Assembly: GCA_025201365.1 (NCBI GenBank)
Contig: JAIXMF010000070.1
Location: 1 to 46,981 of the forward strand
Direction: 5' to 3'
Origin: Syncephalis plumigaleata
Taxonomy: Eukaryota; Zoopagomycota; Zoopagomycetes; Zoopagales; Piptocephalidaceae
DNA: 46,981 nt
This document shows positions 509-29,302 of the stretch, one piece after another. The translations under genes were made by a program, and so were the position numbers. The first letter of the stretch is position 1. Each line of letters opens with the position of its first letter. The notes under the pieces were generated by a model. It had not been told where the DNA came from. It ran no database searches and was given only the letters and a program-made list of their open reading frames with translations.

Positions 509-1570
509 TTATTGATAATCATCAAAGCCATCGTCTATCAGTTGACTATGCTTGCTACGATGACTAGAGATTGACATGTTATCTCTTCCCTGATACGTAT
601 TACTAGTTCTACTGCTGCCATGGCTGTCATATTTACTAGTGAAGCTGCTATCCATAGTCGATTGATAGTCGGTAGTATAGTCGCTTCCCGTTGTACTATA
701 ATAGAACATGTCATCGTCGCCATAGCCGAATACGCCGTAATCCTTGAAATCATCGCCTTGTGCAAAATCATTGTCATAATTGCTTGCTTTAATGGCCACT
801 TTATCCATCGATTCGAATGGTGTTTTCTCGCGTGATCCTTTATGATTGTTTGTCGTCGTCGTCATTGTTGTCGGCTCAGCTACGATTGTTGTTGCGCTCG
901 TGTTAGCTGATGTGTCGGTTGTCATGCTGTTATTCAGCTGAACACGACGTAGACTACGTTTATTCGCATGAGCGATTTGCGCTGCATGTGGAAGTGTAGC
1001 AATATCCACGTCAGGATCATACGTGAACTTCTCAGAAGTTAAATCGTGAATATGGTCCATATCGGCATCTTCTTCGAACTTGTTCATGCACTCCTGACAT
1101 GTGGCATACTCGCCCTTCTTCCATTGCGTTGAATTGTATGCGGTTTTCGGTTTCGTTTCTGAACAATAGGAACATGTTCGTACAGGTATTGGATTGTTGT
1201 TCACCATACCACGGACCATGCCTTGACTGCTTCTACTTGATTTTACGCTAGCATTAGACGCGGACGAGGATGCAGGGCCGTGTCTATCGTCTGAAGTGCC
1301 AGATGAACTACGTGGTCCCGATCTTGATGACGAGCCACCACCACCACCACCTCCACTACATTGCAAACAAAGTGGAGGTCGTTTCTTTTGAGCCAGCTTT
1401 GCCAATTGAGTTGGATTAAAGTGATTGCGAGTCTTCTCTGTATTGCAGCCAAAGCAATGAATCATTTCTCCTCCGGTGGCACCTCCTTGAGAGCGCTGAC
1501 CGCTATAGCCACCACCATTGGTGCCAGGTGGCTTGTTGAGATTTACTTTCCATGCGTTACGTTTCGGCAT
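509..1570 (-). CDS. Stc1-like protein with two zinc-binding modules
   Basis: Single-exon frame of 353 residues, starting at the ATG whose first base is 1570 and ending with TAA at 511-509. Two cysteine modules are visible: C39-x2-C42 with C68-x2-C71, and C133-x2-C136 with C158-x2-C161. Each has an aromatic/Gln stretch between the cysteine pairs (FNPTQLAKL in the first, YNSTQWKKG in the second), as in the Stc1 domain. In fission yeast, Stc1 links the RNAi complex to the CLRC H3K9 methyltransferase. The modules are joined by a Gly/Ser linker with seven glycines, and the C-terminal half is a Thr/Asn/Ser/Asp/Tyr-rich, probably disordered tail. The family call rests on the cysteine pattern. A heterochromatin role is inferred, because many fungal proteins carry Stc1-like fingers without known function. 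The ATG lies 300 bp from that of the divergent SCC3 gene. Confidence 0.75.
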   Translation of the reverse strand: MPKRNAWKVNLNKPPGTNGGGYSGQRSQGGATGGEMIHCFGCNTEKTRNHFNPTQLAKLAQKKRPPLCLQCSGGGGGGGSSSRSGPRSSSGTSDDRHGPASSSASNASVKSSRSSQGMVRGMVNNNPIPVRTCSYCSETKPKTAYNSTQWKKGEYATCQECMNKFEEDADMDHIHDLTSEKFTYDPDVDIATLPHAAQIAHANKRSLRRVQLNNSMTTDTSANTSATTIVAEPTTMTTTTNNHKGSREKTPFESMDKVAIKASNYDNDFAQGDDFKDYGVFGYGDDDMFYYSTTGSDYTTDYQSTMDSSFTSKYDSHGSSRTSNTYQGRDNMSISSHRSKHSQLIDDGFDDYQ

Positions 1571-16548: not shown

Positions 16549-18333
16549 ATGTCTACGGCCGTATCCCCTTCAGCTGCAGAGTTACACCAACAAATTATGG
16601 ACGTAGTTACCGAAGTAGAGACCACATGTGCTATGCCAGTGGAAAGACCCGGCAAGCGTAAGCATTCCGAGGTTGACGCTGCTGAGACTGACTTGAGTGC
16701 GGATCATCATGTTGCTCCATCCGCTGCCAAACGAGCTCATACATGTTCCGGTTCGACTACAACAATGACCACTACCACCACCAACAACAACAACAATGGC
16801 AGTAATGGTCTAGCTATTGTTTGTACAGATAATACATGTGTAGCACATGATAACACAGCAGGTAGTAGTACTAATCATCATCATAGTAATGATCCATCCG
16901 GTACTAGTGGTAATAATAGTAGCAGTACTACGACGACAACTGCCCTTAATACTACGACAACTACGAATACCGCTATTGGCACTGGTCATCCCACTGATAC
17001 CAGTAATCTAGTAGCAATGGATACTGCCTCGCTTTCTTCTCGTGTTTCATCCGACGTGCATCATCTCTCTTTGTCGCTGGCTAATCAAGACACCGCTGAA
17101 CACACTTACGAGTCAACCTTACGTATGCGTCCTATTCAACAAGGTATTCGTCGACAGCGTCGTCCATCCTCGTTACGCTCTCGTGATGGTATTGGTGCTC
17201 TCATGCCTGCACCTGCTGGTGGTCCACTTACACCATTGACTTTGTATCCAACATTGTCATCGTCATCATCGTCATCGTCATCATTTGCCACTGCTACTGC
17301 TACCGCTACTGAAGTGATAGCTGAACATGAATCAACTGCAGGTGTGGTAACAGCATCGTTGGAGAATGAAGAGGCGCCTTGGCTTGATGTGGATCGTAAT
17401 GTACGCAAAATGGACGAGACATTTGATGCGTCCTTCCATGCCTGGCTACGCAATGAAGCCAATGTATGGGTTAGTGCTGGCTATCTACAACGACTGGCCA
17501 TCGAGTATCCAGCTGAACGTACAGCGCGTGCCCTAGCCTGGCTGGCCGAAGGATGGTCCGTTCGATCTGCCGCGGTGTTGGCCCGTGTCGTCACACTACG
17601 CTGGTGTTTAGCAGCCGGTGTCGTCGATCAGTCGACTGCCGGTGCTCATTCCGGTACTAGCACGAGCATGCTCGACAAATTGACTAAACCGCCCGCATCA
17701 CCTTCATTGTATCTATCGAGCGCAGCTACATCGGCCAACACGAGCAACATTGGTTCATCTGGTGCTCAGCGTTGCTGTCATTTATGCTGTGCCACAAATG
17801 GTCTTGTTTATCCATCGACGCCAACTTTTACCACATCTAATCCCCCTACTACTGCTGCTACTGCATGTACAACTCCTGTATCATCATCCTTATCATCATC
17901 AAACAATGTGTCATCCTCATCTTCGCACTCCTCATCAGGAGTAGTAACAGCAGCAGCAGCAGCAGCAGCCACACTATCCGATAACACTCATTCCAGTGCT
18001 GCCATTGTATCGGATCTAACTCGCTCGCATCAGTTACGTGGTGTGGCCAAGGTGGTATGCGCTATCACACGATCCTACACACCACGCGATGTAGGTCGTC
18101 TATTGACAGCCGCTTATGGTGATTTAGATGCACCACGTCTACAAGCACTCGTAGAATTAGTTGGTGTTGGCTGGCCAGCCAATGACTTTGCCGTTCTCGT
18201 AAGCAGTCTAGGCGATCCTGTCCCTGCCAATGTTCGCTTGGCTCTACTTGATCGTGTACGTCACACCTTATCCATTGAACGTACAGTGAGCGAAAGAATT
18301 GTTCACGTGTTTTGTACTTTCCCACTTTTCTAA
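16549..18333 (+). CDS. low-complexity protein, truncated by element insertion
   Basis: A frame of 594 residues whose last 17 codons or so lie inside the mobile element. The native part runs to the TA at 18282-18283. The N-terminal region is Ser/Thr/Asn-rich and includes a basic, nuclear-signal-like PGKRKHSE segment and homopolymeric Thr, Asn and Ser tracts. An ordered helical part follows at about residues 285-360, and another at about 495-578. Two stretches resemble each other: ALAWLAEGWSVRSAAVLARV (about 328-347) and ALVELVGVGWPANDFAVLVS (about 532-551), sharing the pattern A-L-x2-L-x3-GW-x5-AVL. This suggests a helical repeat. I do not recognise the family; a nuclear regulatory role is only a guess from composition. 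Without the element the frame would continue into 19915-20294. Confidence 0.65.
   Translation: MSTAVSPSAAELHQQIMDVVTEVETTCAMPVERPGKRKHSEVDAAETDLSADHHVAPSAAKRAHTCSGSTTTMTTTTTNNNNNGSNGLAIVCTDNTCVAHDNTAGSSTNHHHSNDPSGTSGNNSSSTTTTTALNTTTTTNTAIGTGHPTDTSNLVAMDTASLSSRVSSDVHHLSLSLANQDTAEHTYESTLRMRPIQQGIRRQRRPSSLRSRDGIGALMPAPAGGPLTPLTLYPTLSSSSSSSSSFATATATATEVIAEHESTAGVVTASLENEEAPWLDVDRNVRKMDETFDASFHAWLRNEANVWVSAGYLQRLAIEYPAERTARALAWLAEGWSVRSAAVLARVVTLRWCLAAGVVDQSTAGAHSGTSTSMLDKLTKPPASPSLYLSSAATSANTSNIGSSGAQRCCHLCCATNGLVYPSTPTFTTSNPPTTAATACTTPVSSSLSSSNNVSSSSSHSSSGVVTAAAAAAATLSDNTHSSAAIVSDLTRSHQLRGVAKVVCAITRSYTPRDVGRLLTAAYGDLDAPRLQALVELVGVGWPANDFAVLVSSLGDPVPANVRLALLDRVRHTLSIERTVSERIVHVFCTFPLF
18282..18283. 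other. left TA target duplication
   Basis: A TA dinucleotide directly precedes the element end CAGTGAGCG, and the matching TA is at 19913-19914. TA duplication with CAGT termini is the known signature of Tc1/mariner-superfamily insertion. Confidence 0.75.
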
Positions 18334-19023
18334 TCACCACATAATCAGTATGCAATGTATTTCTCTATTCTTTCACAAGTAAATAAAGGTATTTATTCTC
18401 TTTCTAACGATATAAATTAATCATATATTTAATTATAAAATGCTTGAGATATTAGTGTTGAAAGTCACGTGGTGCACGTGAACAATTTTTTCCATTACTA
18501 ATAAAATTAATATTCTTGAGCAATAATCAATTTTTATTCAATTTAAATGTAATAAAATGTTTATATATGAGTAAATACGAGCTGTCGTGCATCGTACGAG
18601 CAATAAATAATTATAAAGCAAGTTGATGTAGTTGAGCAATATGGCTATAATTGCTCATTTTAATGTATAGTAAAAATGTTACTACAGTATGCTTTATTCA
18701 CTTCCAATTGCCGTGCAAATGCTTATTAAAGCGCTTTTAAGCAATGGTAGCCTCCCTAGAACCACTGCGGGCAAGTTAGCTATGGTTAAAGATATGATTA
18801 CATTGAACAATCACGCATGCAGTTGCTGGAATAGCGTTCACGTTACTACAATTTCGCTTATTACTCAGTGTACATTCGACCGATCCTACTTAAATTGCAG
18901 GTTATGATAAAGCACGTCTTCGCGCAGATAATGATATAAAATAATGCTATGTCGATGGGAAAAGTGTCTAGTTGCCATCCTACAAAGATGATGTCACATT
19001 AATGTCACTGAATAGCGTAAATT
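18282..19023 (+). repeat. left arm of 742-bp inverted repeat
   Basis: Reverse complement of 19173-19914 at every base. The match stops at 18281 (G, opposite T at 19915) on the outside and at 19024 on the inside. The arm holds an 18-bp subterminal motif at 18292-18309, with an inverted 17/18 copy at 18475-18492, and two CACGTG sites three bases apart near 18466-18480. Confidence 0.95.
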
Positions 19024-19912
19024 TTAATTTTAATTTTTTGTAATAAATTTATTAATTAATGCCAAAAATAATAGTAAAAAATAGCGCAGAGCACGTTAAT
19101 AAAGCATAATAAACAATAACAATAGCAGTTAATAAAGTGTTAAAGAATTTATTAAAAGATCTAATAAGAATTAATTTACGCTATTCAGTGACATTAATGT
19201 GACATCATCTTTGTAGGATGGCAACTAGACACTTTTCCCATCGACATAGCATTATTTTATATCATTATCTGCGCGAAGACGTGCTTTATCATAACCTGCA
19301 ATTTAAGTAGGATCGGTCGAATGTACACTGAGTAATAAGCGAAATTGTAGTAACGTGAACGCTATTCCAGCAACTGCATGCGTGATTGTTCAATGTAATC
19401 ATATCTTTAACCATAGCTAACTTGCCCGCAGTGGTTCTAGGGAGGCTACCATTGCTTAAAAGCGCTTTAATAAGCATTTGCACGGCAATTGGAAGTGAAT
19501 AAAGCATACTGTAGTAACATTTTTACTATACATTAAAATGAGCAATTATAGCCATATTGCTCAACTACATCAACTTGCTTTATAATTATTTATTGCTCGT
19601 ACGATGCACGACAGCTCGTATTTACTCATATATAAACATTTTATTACATTTAAATTGAATAAAAATTGATTATTGCTCAAGAATATTAATTTTATTAGTA
19701 ATGGAAAAAATTGTTCACGTGCACCACGTGACTTTCAACACTAATATCTCAAGCATTTTATAATTAAATATATGATTAATTTATATCGTTAGAAAGAGAA
19801 TAAATACCTTTATTTACTTGTGAAAGAATAGAGAAATACATTGCATACTGATTATGTGGTGATTAGAAAAGTGGGAAAGTACAAAACACGTGAACAATTC
19901 TTTCGCTCACTG
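18284..19912. mobile_element. Tc1/mariner-like foldback element, non-autonomous
   Basis: The 1,629-bp element consists of two 740-bp inverted arms (742 bp with the flanking TA) around a 149-bp AT-rich spacer. Position x pairs with 38196 minus x. I compared every base of the arms and found no mismatch or gap. The ends read CAGTGAGCGAAAG and are flanked by TA, as expected for Tc1/mariner-type ends. No transposase is visible; the longest frame (72 codons) appears once in each arm because of the symmetry. Removing the element with one TA rejoins the host reading frame exactly. An assembly or amplification artefact could also give a perfect palindrome, but it would not be expected to give TA-CAGT borders and a restored frame. 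Confidence 0.85.
19024..19172. other. spacer between palindrome arms
   Basis: 149 bp of very AT-rich, non-symmetrical DNA forming the loop of the foldback structure. No coding potential or recognisable motif. Confidence 0.9.
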
Positions 19913-19914
19913 TA
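19173..19914 (-). repeat. right arm of 742-bp inverted repeat
   Basis: Exact reverse complement of 18282-19023. It therefore repeats the subterminal motifs, at 19887-19904 and 19704-19721, and the 72-codon frame on the opposite strand (19507-19289). Confidence 0.95.
19913..19914. other. right TA target duplication
   Basis: TA directly after the element's right end (CGCTCACTG). Host sequence resumes at 19915 with a TCG/TCA serine-codon run. Confidence 0.75.
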
Positions 19915-20294
19915 TATCGTCATCATCGTCATCGTCATCATCGTCATTGTCTGCAAGAGGTGGCAACGTGGCAACAGCCAATATAATGAATCCAATGACA
20001 CATTCAGTATTACACCGATCATTCGCTAATACTATGACTACGAGCAATGGTTCTCGTATAGCAACAGCGGTTCCTACAGCTATTGCAACAGCTACAACTT
20101 CGACTACAGCCAATGCTAATGGTGCAAGTAATACATTGCGCCATCCAGCCTCATTACATATTCGTACTGCAATCTCATCATTTGCTAATGCATCGATTCC
20201 ACCAGCACCTCGTTCGGCACCCTTATTTGGTCGTATGGATAGATCCGCTATGGGCAATACTGCTAATACTACTGGCACTGTCACCTTCATCTAG
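19915..20294 (+). pseudogene. severed 3' part of the 16549 gene
   Basis: Host coding sequence cut off from its 5' part by the element. After removing the element and one TA, codon 578 (CGT) is followed by ATA and then this segment in frame, ending with TAA-free sequence up to a TAG stop at 20292-20294. The joined frame would be 705 codons including the stop. The segment begins with a serine run from TCG/TCA repeats and continues Ala/Thr/Asn-rich with a basic, Pro-containing C-terminus, matching the composition of the 5' part. It has no start of its own outside the element; an ATG at 19890 lies inside the right arm. Whether any transcript still includes it cannot be judged from DNA. Confidence 0.7.
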
Positions 20295-23047: not shown

Positions 23048-26000
23048 ATGGCTCGTGGAAATAATCGTACCTCTACGATTGATGGCGAGGACCATAATCT
23101 CGTGCAATTATCTGTCAATTCGGCAAATCCAACCGCTGTCACTCAAGCGTTAAAAAATTGTCATGCCCAAGGCCAACCTTACGCTGATTGTGGCACCAAT
23201 GCCTTAGTGGTCGTTAATCCTGGTCGTGTACTAGCATTGATGCACGATGAATGTGCCAAACAGTATGCTAAGGAGTACAAGGAGAGTGGTCATAGTACGA
23301 CGAAAACGTCACCACTATCACCACATATCTTCTCCCTTGCATCAAAGGCCTATTTGCACCTACGTCGTTTAGGTCAGGATCAAGCAATTATTATGAGGTA
23401 AGCTGTCATTATTACTATTTTTATTGTTATTGTTGTAGTTATTAATGTAATATGATGTAGTGGTATTGCTGGCAGCGGTAAAACTGAAAGTCATCGAGCT
23501 CTTGTGCGTCAACTATGCTTGTTGGCCGCACATTCAAAGAAAGATGCCAAGATGCACGCTCAGGTGCAACAGGCTCAGCATGTACTAGAGGCTTTCGGTA
23601 ACGTACGTAGCAGTAATAACCCCAATGCCTCCAGCTATGGTCTATTCGAGGAGTTACAATTCAATGAGCGTGGTCGTGTCATTGGTGCCAAGTTTCTTAC
23701 TTTCGGCTTCGATAAGACACGTATGTTGGCGGTCAGTCCGCAAGAACGTAGTTTCCACGCCTTCTACTATTTGCTAGCCGGTGCCACAAGTGAAGAGCGT
23801 CAGCGTTGGCAACTACGCGATCTATCCTTTTATGCTTATCTACGCGGGCGTGCCACTCAAATTCCCGGCGTTGACGATGCACTCCGTTATCAAGAACTTA
23901 CCGAGGCCATGCGAGTATGCGGCATTAAAAGTCGTGCCCGTGATCAGATATTCCAACTGCTATCGGCCATTCTACACTTGGGCGAGCTCGAGTTCGATGA
24001 CGGTGAACTAGCGGATGATGCATGTGTTATTCGTAATCATGATCAACTGGAAGTGGTGGCCAGCTTACTCGGTGTCACTACCGCTGCATTGGAGACGGCA
24101 CTCACTTATCAAACGAAACAGGTGCGTGGCGACGTGTGCACCGTACTACTCAATCCTGAATCCGCACGACAACACCGTGATGCCTTCGCCTGTTCACTCT
24201 ACTCATTACTGTTCACCTGGCTTGTCGAGTGTCTCAATCAAAAGCTGTGTCACGAGGAGGAAACCGTCAATATTGTGGCACTACTCGATCCACAGGGTTT
24301 CCGTACGACGGCGGCTGGCATGCAATCCAACAAATCGGCTGCTAACGGCAACTTTGAGACGTTCCTTACGAATTTCGCCGCTGAACGTGTACACAACTAT
24401 GCGTCACGTCGTGCATTCGAGGGCCCGGTTGACGCGGAAATGCGTAATGATGGTGTACAAATATCTCGTATACCGTATACCGATAATACGACATGTGTTG
24501 AATTACTACGTGGCAACGACTCCACCGATAGAAAGAAATCCATCCTGGCTATACTCGACTACGAGACGGCTAAAAAGGAGAGCATCAACTCGGAGGGTCT
24601 TGCCACGAAACTTGGCCAGAAAATTGGTGCACACTCATGTTTCTCGTTGACATCGGCGAAGCACAACACGTGGACGATCAACCATTTCGGCGGCAAGGTA
24701 ACCTATACCGATGCTAAAATGCTGGAGAAACACAGCGACACGCTAGTACCCGATCTAGTGAGTGTGTGTCGCGCGTCTAAACTTCCATTTATCGCCGAAT
24801 TGTTCAGTACTCTCGCCATCACTACGGAAGCGGATCCACGCGACGAGAACTCGATCGTTGCTGCACGTCCGCAGGGACGATTGATCCGATCGCCATCCCG
24901 TCGATTTAAGCGTGATGCCACTCGACTCAAGACCTCCAGTAATGCTGGGGATGACCATTCACTTAGTGACGCATATAGCGGTAAAGAATCATCCTCGCCT
25001 GGTGTCAATTCAATCAACAACGGCAAGAATGGTGGTGTGGCTCGTCAACTGGACAACACCATGAGTGAATTCTTCATCACACTAGACGAGTGTCGAGTAT
25101 GGCTAGCGTATCATGTGCAACCGAATAATCAGGACATTGCTGGTAGTGCCACTACGGGTACTGCACCGCGCTTCGATGCAAAACACGGGCAGTATCAGGT
25201 GCAAGCGTTGTTAATCGCTGAACTAGTACGTCAACGCCATAATGTACCCGATATGACGATTGGGTTTAGTTACGAGGAATTCCTAGAGCGTTACTCGCCC
25301 ATTATACAGTCGTTGCAGTTGAACACGTCACGACCACCTAAGGAAAAGGTACACGCGTTGGCAATGCTTAACCATTGGTCGGACAACGATATACGTACGG
25401 GTAATCGACGCGTATTTTTATCCGAACCCATTTGGCGCGAATTGGAACACTCCTTGAAACAGCATGAAAAGGGTGAACGTAATAAGGAGCAACCGGATGG
25501 CGCTACTACCACCACCACCAATAATGATAATGATAATGATAAAAGTACTCGTGCTGCTTCCGCCTCCGTCAAGGGCGGTTCTATTCGTAATGGTCACACG
25601 CCCGACGCAGCAGCTCATGAACGACGCACATCGGCGTATAGCAATGCAAGCACAGAATTCGGCAATTATCCTGTACGTACACCCGGTGGAGAAAGTCAAA
25701 GTATGGCGAGCGACGATGATGATGGCTACTTTGAAATGCGTAATCATGGTGCATTCGCCACGAGTAGTGTTCGTGCCAGTACCATTGGTAATGGTAGTGT
25801 ACATGACGGTGGTAGTATACGTCACGGTAGGAATAATGCAGGTAGCGGTGATGATAATGCATCCGCCTATGAATCCGTCTATCATGGTACACGTAGCGAC
25901 GCGGGTAGGGCCGATCATCTACGACAAATGTGGGGAGACGATCCACCGAACGATAACGGTGCAACTGAGTTACATGGTGATAAAAATACAGGCAAGAATG

Positions 26001-29000
26001 AAGGAGCACAAATAGAAGATGACGACGATGATGAAGAGGAGATATCACGTCAACGTCGATGCTGGGTATGTTGTACATGGTCACTCACCTGGTGGATTCC
26101 TACCTGTTGCCTATCGACATGCGGCAGGATGAAGCGTGACGACATACAAATGGCGTGGCGTGAAAAGGTGGCCATCTGTATTATCATCTTCTTTTGCTGT
26201 TTAATATCCGTACTCTTTATTGTATTACTACCATCGCTGTTATGTCCACGTACCTATGTGTACTCGCCCGAGGAGATCGCCTACCATCAGGGTCCGGACG
26301 ATTTATACATGTCCATCTACGGTGTCGTCTACGATGTGAGCATATTCGCACGTAACGGTCATGGATCCGTGCAACGTAAAGCGAGTAGAGATGATATGAT
26401 CGCGCTTGGTGGACAAGATGTCACGCCACTCTTTCCGCTCCCCTTGACGGAGACATGTCCAGGTCTAGTGTCGAAATCCTACGTCGAGGTCAAGGACAAT
26501 CGTACCACCACGATGAACGCGTTCATTCATCGATCGGGCGATGACCCGCGTGTCGATGTTACGTCCGACCTACACCAGCATAATTGGTACAGCAACCACG
26601 TCCTCAAAGCGCTGAAACGTAGTCGCAAGGGACAGATCGCCTTCGAGCCTAAGCGGGTGGCGGACGAGGCACGTATCAACAATCGTCGCTGGTGTATCAT
26701 CGAGCAGAACGTCATCGATTTGACGTATTATTATGATACGTTGGCTGATCCAGCTGCCGCCTCGTTGAATATCACGGACTTCCAATACCTCAGCAAAGCC
26801 ATTGACCCGCTATTCTCCGAGTACAACGGGCAGGATAACACGGAACGATTTCTGCGTATTAATCCACCATCTGCGCGTAAAATGCTTTACAACTGTATGC
26901 TGAATAACTTCAAGGTGGGCGTGGTCGATCAACGTCACTCCATTCGGTGTCAGCTTGCCGACTATCTACTATTAACCACGGCCTGCTTGCTTGTTGCGGT
27001 TATTTTCGTTAAATTCTTGGCCGCTCTACAACTTGGTACACGTCGTAATCCGGAGGATCATGACAAATTCGTTATTTGTCAGGTGCCTTGCTACACGGAG
27101 GGTGAAGACTCGCTACAACGCGCCTTCGAATCATTGGCCATGCTCAACTACGACGACAAACGCAAGCTAATCTTCGTCATTGCCGACGGTATGATTGTTG
27201 GTAGTGGTAACGATCGTCCCACACCACGTATTGTACTGGATCTACTCGGTGTCGATCCTAAATACAATCCAGATCCATTGCCGTTCAAGAGTGTAGGCGA
27301 GGGTGCTAACCAGTTGAACTACGGCAAGGTCTACTCCGGTCTGTACGAATACGAGGGACACGTCGTACCCTATCTCGTAGTGGTGAAAGTGGGTCGACCC
27401 ACCGAGCGTAATCGTCCTGGTAATCGTGGTAAACGTGACTCGCAAATCGTACTCATGCGATTCCTTAATCGTGTCCACTTTGATCGTGCCATGTCACCAC
27501 TCGAATTGGAGGTCTACCATCAACTGAAGAATGTCATCGGTGTACATCCCAGTTTCTACGAGTACATTCTCATGGTGGATGCCGACACACAAGTATCGCC
27601 ACAATCGCTTAATCGTCTCATCTCGTGTATGTTGCACGACCAACGGGTAATGGGTATTTGCGGTGAGACTCGCTTAGCAAACGAGGATCTTACATGGGCC
27701 ACGATGATTCAAGTGTACGAATACTACATCTCCCATCATATGGCCAAAGCATTCGAGTCCCTATTCGGTTCAGTTACTTGTTTGCCCGGTTGTTTCTGCA
27801 TGTATCGTGTACGCACGCCGGTTAAGAATCGCCCATTGATTATCGCCGATGACGTTGTAACCGCTTATTCCGAGAATCATGTTGATACGCTGCATAAGAA
27901 GAATTTGCTATCCCTCGGTGAGGATCGTTACTTGACCACACTCATGCTTAAACACTTCCCGCAATACAAGATGACCTTCACACCGGATGCCACTTGTGAG
28001 ACGGCAGCACCCGAGAAATGGTCCATTCTCCTGTCACAACGTCGTCGATGGATTAACTCGACTATTCACAATTTAATCGAATTGCTATTCCTGGAAGATT
28101 TGTGCGGTTTCTGCTGTTTCTCCATGCGATTCGTGGTGATGATCGACTTGGTCGGTACCATCTTGATGCCTGCCTCACTCGTCTACATCGCGTATCTCAT
28201 CTACTTAGTGATTGAGGCTCAGAACTCTGGTAGTCCCACCGGTACAAGTTTCGTATCGCTAATCATTCTAGTGGCTGTCTACGGTCTACAAGCGGTTATC
28301 TTTATTTTGAAACGACAATGGCAACACATTGGCTGGATGATCATCTACTTGCTTGCCATGCCAATCTTTTCCTTCCTGATTCCAATCTACTCGTTCTGGC
28401 ATTTCGACGATTTCTCCTGGGGTAACACGCGTGTTGTCGTCGGCGAGAACAAGAAGAAGAAGGTGATCGTGATGGGCGAGGAGGAGAAATTCGATCCACG
28501 TAAGATTCCTATGCGCACATGGGCACAATACGAGCAGGAGATGTGGGAGGTAGGCTCGAATGGTTCGCGCGACTCTCGTATTTCGGGTGCCACTGGATAC
28601 ACGCACAACACGTATCGTAGTAAGGCAGCATCGCGTACAGGAGCTGAATCGTATTATGGTGGTGGTGGTGCTAATACCAATATTGACATGGGATCTAAAC
28701 GATTATCCGGTCATCAAATGGACACTATGATGAATATGTCACAAGGATATCATCATCAGCAGCAGCATCGTATGAGCCATACTGCATCCATTATGAATGG
28801 ACATGATCCTAATAGTAATCTACCACCTCATTCGGATCATCGATTATCTTATTCTAATTCAACCGGTGATCTAATGAATCAACCGCAGCAACCATACTAT
28901 TCACCTAGTGGACATGTCATTGATCCACGTCAATCGGCCGTCTATAATCCTAGTAGTCATCATTCATCATCGCATTATCATTCGCGCAGCGAGTATAATC

Positions 29001-29302
29001 CTACAACGAATATAGATAGCAATAACGGCGGCACTATACCACGTCCTATATCCGCATTTAGCACTACCGGTCGCTATTCAATGACAAGTAGTGGCAATGC
29101 TAATAATGGTTCAACCGGTCAACAACCAAGCGATGAACGTCTTATGGGCTCCATTCGGCAAATACTATCCACGAGCGATTTAATGACCATTACTAAGAAG
29201 CAAGTGCGGGACCAATTGAGTATGATGTACGGCGTGGATCTAACACCGCGCAAGGATTTCATTAACAATGCTATCGAGATGATCCTACAAGGTCGTCTAT
29301 AA
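23048..29302 (+). CDS. chitin synthase with myosin-like motor head (class V type)
   Basis: Exons 23048-23397 and 23461-29302 give 2,063 residues. The intron (23398-23460) falls just before the P-loop GIAGSGKTES (G121-T125 core). A myosin-like head covers roughly residues 20-720. Next come a Ser/Asn-rich linker, a membrane segment near 1020, a cytochrome b5-like fold near 1045-1120, another membrane segment near 1170-1190 and the GT2 chitin synthase core. Catalytic marks are VPCYTEGEDS, D1490-A-D1492, E1604-D-R1606 and Q1643-RRRW1647. At least three C-terminal membrane spans follow, then a disordered Ser/Asn/His-rich tail and a DEK_C domain at about 2007-2063. The enzyme polymerises UDP-GlcNAc into chitin at the plasma membrane, and the head aids delivery along actin. 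Switch motifs are divergent: NPNASSYG in place of the usual NxNSSRFG, and LLDPQGF in the switch II region. Codon use is more GC-rich than in neighbours, consistent with high expression. Confidence 0.95.

Follow-up and report, generated by a model that had tools for sequence, protein, structure and literature searches.

A perfect palindrome of 1633 bp lies within the 46,981-nucleotide stretch of Syncephalis plumigaleata DNA analysed here (contig JAIXMF010000070.1 of assembly GCA_025201365.1, complete; hereafter, the window). With a probability that we put at roughly 0.8, this palindrome is a non-autonomous foldback element of the Tc1/mariner type that is mobilised in trans by the transposase of a related element (element C), with arms that are kept equal by copying and ends that can be renewed by gene conversion. 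The assembly from which the window comes was searched throughout (32.6 Mb, 383 contigs), and contains (i) 21 palindromes of this kind, (ii) five transposase-bearing elements, (iii) motifs common to the ends of both, (iv) empty sites with a single TA, and (v) insertions that are missing from a second copy of the region concerned. It is on account of these copies, the TA empty sites, the partner element and the common motifs that we regard the palindrome as a non-autonomous foldback Tc1/mariner element, probably trans-mobilised.

The complementarity between position x and position 38196-x is unbroken for every x from 18282 to 19023; the first mismatch inward is at 19024, and outward at 18281. 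A repeat search of the window returned the same two arms (Table 1) as an inverted pair of 742 nt, 100% complementary and 149 nt apart; the next-longest inverted pair listed in the window is only 65 nt long, at 71%. The ends of the element read TACAGTGAGCG...CGCTCACTGTA. A first-pass annotation, made from the sequence of the window, had described mismatch-free 742 bp arms, a 149 bp spacer and TA ends, all of which are borne out by the position-wise complementarity and the repeat search; it had also placed no transposase between the arms, and the palindrome indeed encodes none. Its description of a "foldback/MITE-like family" holds in its first half. The element is a foldback in the broad sense (long arms, 2 x 742 of 1633 bp, in 21 copies), without the variable composite arms and the target duplication longer than TA that mark FB-type foldbacks: the 19 complete, uninterrupted palindromes are all 1633 or 1634 bp long. 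Miniature inverted-repeat transposable elements (MITEs) are short and high in copy number, a description that does not fit 21 copies of 1633–1634 bp.

Used as a query on the assembly, the spacer found 21 matches (13 at 100% identity, one at 99% and seven at 95%), while a 40-base inner-arm probe, allowing up to three mismatches, gave 42: two per palindrome in the same 21, and no others. The length of the arms, together with the 20 further copies, excludes a chance origin of the palindrome. Two types of arm occur, labelled A (the window's copy) and B. Arms and spacer are both of type A in twelve copies and both of type B in seven; L057 joins B arms with the A spacer, and the left arm of L041 is a hybrid. 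The seven 1634 bp B copies are mutually identical, and four A copies, including that of the window, are identical across 1633 bp. Over the comparable length, 17 of the 21 copies show no arm mismatch (L039 was comparable over 729 positions, L045 minus its first 21 bases); the remainder show two mismatches (L043, L046), one (L044) or 44 (L041). L045 is truncated by a contig end, and contig C184 starts within a copy; L055 was left out, being a second retrieval of L059. Flanks are present on both sides in 20 of the 21 copies, and a comparison of 400 bp of flank among these 20 found shared flanks only for an allelic pair (L049/L052) and for neighbours in L046.

Two candidates were tried and rejected. 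Firstly, the 7.75 kb L039 might have been an autonomous element, and proved to be an A copy into which a gypsy-type retrotransposon has inserted. The L039 palindrome (contig C112:1953341-1963093) sits in a gypsy-type element of its own; the nested one, a second gypsy-type element with 186 bp direct terminal repeats, lies close to where the palindrome's right arm begins. Secondly, L064 (contig C101) consists of a single end without alignment to A, and is a chance end match. The end pattern with up to three mismatches gave 11 matches in a reversed control, so matches at this level were counted only where a whole element was present. The B spacer carries a short inner-arm copy (B 809-830, A 630-651) where it differs from the A spacer, perhaps the product of a template switch at the centre of the palindrome.

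Five empty sites, four for palindromes and one for element C, reveal clean insertion at a single TA, the target of Tc1/mariner elements. The additional TA-flanked copies foreseen by the annotation are thus present: 21 palindromes including the window's, with empty sites that hold one TA. The window's own copy breaks an open reading frame (ORF) of 594 amino acids, a Pfam search of which gave no match. On contig C362, a copy of this ORF is uninterrupted and 99% identical over residues 1-581, and the joined flanks of the window's element match that contig across one TA, apart from gaps of 3 and 15 bases that fall in simple repeats and a few neighbouring substitutions. Because of this uninterrupted, 99% identical ORF, the window contig appears to represent either an alternative haplotype or a duplicated sequence, and the assembly probably retains two haplotypes or duplicates. 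The matching gene copy, 99% identical to that of the window, spans contig C362:637227-638978.

The other empty sites are those of L049, L052, L039 and L041. L049 (a palindrome) and L052 (an element C) are allelic; each sequence contains one element and the other's empty site, the two sites being 259 bases apart, and 802 of 802 bases are identical once both insertions are omitted. For L039, the nested copy of its gypsy-type host aligns gap-free over the insertion point, at 93% overall. In the case of L041, the joined flanks matched 18 places, and 13 of these hold them whole and uninterrupted (one at 100%). Among the 50 flanks of 25 elements (20 palindromes and five C, counted without L045 and L055), T adjoins the TA in 24 and occupies the third place in 27.

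Element C was found with the end pattern and has five copies: four of 1656 bp, mutually identical, and one of 1855 bp (L054), all with perfect 213 bp terminal repeats. Its ORF encodes a transposase of 380 amino acids (376 in L054) that matches Pfam DDE_3 and HTH_Tnp_Tc3_2, both above cut-off; in a PDB search, the sole match was the Sleeping Beauty catalytic domain (5cr4, E 4.6e-48). By their motifs, the catalytic residues can be placed at D188, D281 and E317. The first-pass annotation had predicted an autonomous element with the same ends as the palindrome and a DD34 transposase. Five transposase-bearing copies with matching end motifs do exist, but the ends of A and C are related rather than the same (169/213), and 35 residues separate the second D from the E, where the DD34E of the Tc1 clade has 34. 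In L054 (contig C318:676961-680815), about 190 extra bases near the right end alter the final residues of the transposase.

A, B and C share the layout of the terminal module. In every A, B and C module, an outer motif at positions 10-28 is matched by an inverted copy at positions 194-212, with agreement at 17, 19 and 18 of 19 letters, respectively; in the C module, this pairing reaches a value attained by 0 of 300 shuffles. The inner motif (up to three mismatches) has 52 matches in the assembly, two in each of the 21 palindromes and five C elements, and none in the control. The motif zones are also conserved: between A and C they differ at 2 of 69 positions, compared with 42 of 144 in the middle of the module (Fisher p = 1.4e-6), and between A and B at 3 of 69 compared with 37 of 144 (p = 1.2e-4). 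This zone conservation supports the view that one transposase may serve A, B and C. The terminal repeats of the palindrome are shared with an element encoding a Tc1/mariner DDE transposase, at 169 of 213 positions between A and C and at 213 of 213 in the left end of L041.

A protein search returned the five C copies and four weaker matches. Element D is a second Tc1/mariner element, with 225 bp repeats and a 347-amino-acid frame (L076, contig C42:1470-3106; L077, contig C77); it has the same geometry of outer and inverted inner motifs as A, B and C, but a different motif (17/19 letters). Five DDE_3 matches with an open frame of 383 amino acids, on contigs C39, C90, C116, C344 and C362, represent a further transposase family.

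The arms themselves suggest copying. The window's copy and the B reference both have perfect arms, and differ from each other at 56 of 742 positions, mirrored in both arms. These differences are concentrated in the outer module (40/213, compared with 16/529 inside; Fisher 5.9e-12), so that A and B are 81% identical at the ends and 97% identical over the remainder of the arm. At these 56 positions, unequal arms are seen among the 21 copies only in the left arm of L041 and at position 349 of L043 and L046 (in L045, one arm lacks its first positions). Two positions vary within subfamily A. The letters at 204 and 349, written arm/arm for the twelve A copies and L041, are AA/AA in seven copies, GG/AA in two, GG/AG in one, AG/AG in two and GA/GA in one. 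G at 204 is absent from the A reference, B and C; L048 has it in both arms, and three other A copies have it in one. These arm states are those expected if mismatches between paired arms are corrected singly, in either direction. Perfect arms are probably more than a sign of youth, and seem to be maintained.

L041 points to the replacement of an end. Positions 1-213 of its left arm are those of C (213/213), the remaining 529 of 529 are those of A, and its right arm is A. We infer that this end was acquired from C by gene conversion. Crossing over between C and A was considered as the source and set aside, conversion being preferred because the joined flanks form one intact repeat (the 13 whole places mentioned above) and no reciprocal product is among the listed ends; since the target is itself a repeat, crossing over keeps some room. 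Less surely, the outer module of B, which is nearer to C (193/213) than is that of A (169/213), may derive from an earlier event with a C-like element.

The origin of the arms may be sought in the same direction. A aligns with C at 78%: over the first 295 bases of its left side, a stretch that runs beyond the 213 bp repeat as far as the ORF start, and over 232 bases of its right side. Further in, arm positions 399-521 hold a weak, collinear protein trace of C transposase residues 38-78 (31.7% over 41 amino acids), while no remains of transposase D were found in the arms (490 of 1000 shuffles were as good). We infer from these alignments that an old relative of C gave rise to the arm through a head-to-head duplication of its left end.

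Several observations weigh against the interpretation as a whole. Movement, binding and conversion are all deduced from one assembly, without reads. The end pattern used in the element search itself contains TA, which makes the TA borders of its matches circular in part; it is the empty sites that test them independently. With regard to the arms, GG/GG at 204/349 is not among the 13 copies, and the G at 349 may stem from exchange with B, since it is also the B letter. The three copies that are unequal at 204 or 349 are all on contigs of 10–30 kb, where consensus or polishing errors are likelier, a concern tempered by the fact that seven of the 13 copies are on contigs of less than 60 kb. With regard to the origin of the arms, 5 of 1000 shuffles score as high as the trace of C transposase, and a Pfam search of the arms gave no match. 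With regard to mobilisation, the motif zones of B and C (3/69) do not differ significantly from the middle (17/144; p = 0.13), and the outer modules of A and C are 79% alike, with 44 differences, which leaves room for a lost A-type transposase.

That the palindromes are moved by some other transposase—such a lost A-type enzyme, or another of the DDE_3 families present—is rather unlikely. While the divergence of A and C ends and the DDE_3 matches at other loci would suit it, no further element carries the inner motif at up to three mismatches (52 of 52 matches are assigned), and the motifs of D, the one other transposase family whose ends were compared, differ. Youth would explain perfect arms more simply: one perfect palindrome arose lately and spread, with no copying between arms, as the identical sets of four A and seven B copies might suggest. 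We consider this improbable, and reject it in its simple form because the 56 differences between perfect A and B copies stand in both arms alike; unequal and equalised states at two sites tell against it too. Mirrored differences would need no copying if A and B were two independent head-to-head duplications of diverged parents, and a short AATT stretch at both arm-spacer junctions is a place where duplication could recur. Little credence can be given to this either: A and B have the same arm length and junctions, their spacers are 95% alike, L057 joins the arms of one with the spacer of the other, and within A the G at 204 occurs both mirrored (L048) and in a single arm (three other copies).

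A different role for the palindrome would be that of a silencer. The Muk locus of maize is a parallel, in which a hairpin gives rise to double-stranded RNA that silences a transposase; the 742 bp perfect inverted repeat would fold if transcribed, and 20 arm 21-mers also occur in C. Silencing of this sort has been suggested for fungal Tc1-mariner elements, according to the accessible part of PMC4188875. We see only a slim chance that the palindrome is such a source directed at the C transposase: its DNA likeness to C is limited to the ends and the gene start. Finally, it is very improbable that assembly or polishing made the arms or their small differences: for all that the assembly comes without reads, that the unequal copies are on small contigs and that one contig begins inside a copy, 20 of 21 copies are flanked on both sides by sequences that are distinct (bar L049/L052 and the L046 neighbours), empty sites exist, and L041 keeps 44 arm differences, which argues that the assembler did not simply force arms to be equal.

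Taken as a C-mobilised foldback with maintained arms, the palindrome would have the following history. Its arms probably started as the left end—terminal repeat plus the start of the transposase gene—of the older C relative, in head-to-head duplication. Most likely, it moves by cut and paste into TA sites using the transposase of the 1656 bp element C. One arm would act as the template for the other, for example through mismatch repair when the arms pair as a hairpin or cruciform, or through inter-arm gene conversion. Gene conversion could also supply a new outer 213 bp module from a different element, C for instance, and such a swap might renew recognition by the transposase; arm-to-arm copying would then bring the new end to the opposite side. 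More tentatively, and with the odds somewhat against it, the palindrome may by this route stay recognisable to successive transposases, capturing a terminal module on one arm and copying it across while its core hardly alters. Non-autonomous transposons rely on a transposase that is liable to change or vanish, and this one genome holds what appear to be stages of an escape: unequal arms, partly and fully equalised arms, and a single copy in which just one side bears the partner's end. This opens to test the idea that the arms of a mobile palindrome convert each other.

Table 1. Features of the palindrome and of the gene that it interrupts (window coordinates)
Feature	Coordinates	Strand	Basis or remark
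Entire palindromic element, 1633 bp with one TA per end	18282–19914	.	self-complementarity, repeat search, empty site
Left arm, 742 bp	18282–19023	+	self-complementarity
Right arm, 742 bp, exact reverse complement of left arm	19173–19914	-	self-complementarity
Spacer, 149 bp, AT-rich	19024–19172	+	spacer search of assembly
Outer 213 bp module, counterpart of the 213 bp terminal repeat of element C	18282–18494	+	alignment
Outer 213 bp module, right end	19702–19914	-	alignment
Outer motif, arm positions 10-28; candidate transposase-binding site	18291–18309	+	
Outer motif, right end	19887–19905	-	
Inner motif CACGTGGTGCACGTGAACAATTTTTTCCA, contains inverted copy of outer motif; two per element in 26 elements	18466–18494	+	
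Inner motif, right arm	19702–19730	-	
Faint collinear trace of transposase N-terminus	18680–18802	+	mirror copy at 19394–19516
Arm position 204, A or G within subfamily A	18485	+	mirror at 19711
Arm position 349, A or G within subfamily A; G in subfamily B	18630	+	mirror at 19566
Host ORF as it stands, 594 amino acids, extends into left arm	16549–18333	+	broken at TA 18282–18283
Rest of host ORF past the element, as read across the empty site	19915–20294	+	copy on contig C362 uninterrupted

Two further genes of the window can be named. An ORF at 509-1570 (minus strand) matches the Stc1 domain (E 3.2e-6), a domain linked in fission yeast with heterochromatin directed by RNA interference. The ORF at 23504-29302 (plus strand; 1932 amino acids) has myosin head, cytochrome b5-like, chitin synthase and DEK_C domains, and by these is a fungal myosin-chitin synthase.

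A close framework for the palindrome is that of Tc1/mariner elements of the Sleeping Beauty type. It shares with them the TA target and, through C, the HTH_Tnp_Tc3_2 and DDE_3 domains and the arrangement of outer and inner motifs about 180 bp apart at each end. The outer and inner motifs of Sleeping Beauty are direct repeats, whereas here the inner motif is an inverted copy of the outer; the palindrome also lacks a transposase, and the catalytic spacing of C is 35. Galileo, of the P superfamily in Drosophila (PMC3573991), likewise has long terminal repeats, copies that are nearly all repeat, exchange between subfamilies and chimeric copies, for which conversion has been proposed; it belongs to a different superfamily, and the flanks of L041 join to one intact target. 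Long inverted arms in a non-autonomous element are also found in Foldback4 of Drosophila (PMC2955051) and Tm1 of Meloidogyne (PMC3169594). Foldback4 shows strong internal variation, and Tm1 has composite terminal repeats of variable length with 9 bp target duplications, in contrast to the constant arms and TA target of the palindrome; a Tc1/mariner-like element, Mcmar, with 355 bp repeats is mentioned alongside Tm1 (PMC3169594). The palindromic transposons of C. elegans and mosquito (PMC3212995) are mobile palindromes too, though mirrored subfamily differences and end replacement are not reported in the accessible part of that account.

Copying between the two halves of one sequence has parallels of its own. 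In ISWpi1 of Wolbachia (PMC3004938), recombination between the terminal repeats of one element converts them to identity; this is a bacterial insertion sequence whose repeats are short and had one mismatch, as opposed to the 742 bp arms and many sites of the palindromes. In mammalian sex-chromosome palindromes (PMC8981503), gene conversion from arm to arm keeps arm identity high, in structures that are large, chromosomal and non-mobile. The literature on foldback, palindromic, long-repeat and converting Tc1-type elements, including those of Mucorales and related fungi, did not directly report the combination within the coverage available, from which subscription papers are mostly absent; the accessible part of PMC4168063 held nothing decisive. 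Foldback elements, the exchange of ends and conversion between terminal repeats are each already known, and what appears, on the literature covered, to be new is their combination in a single mobile palindrome.

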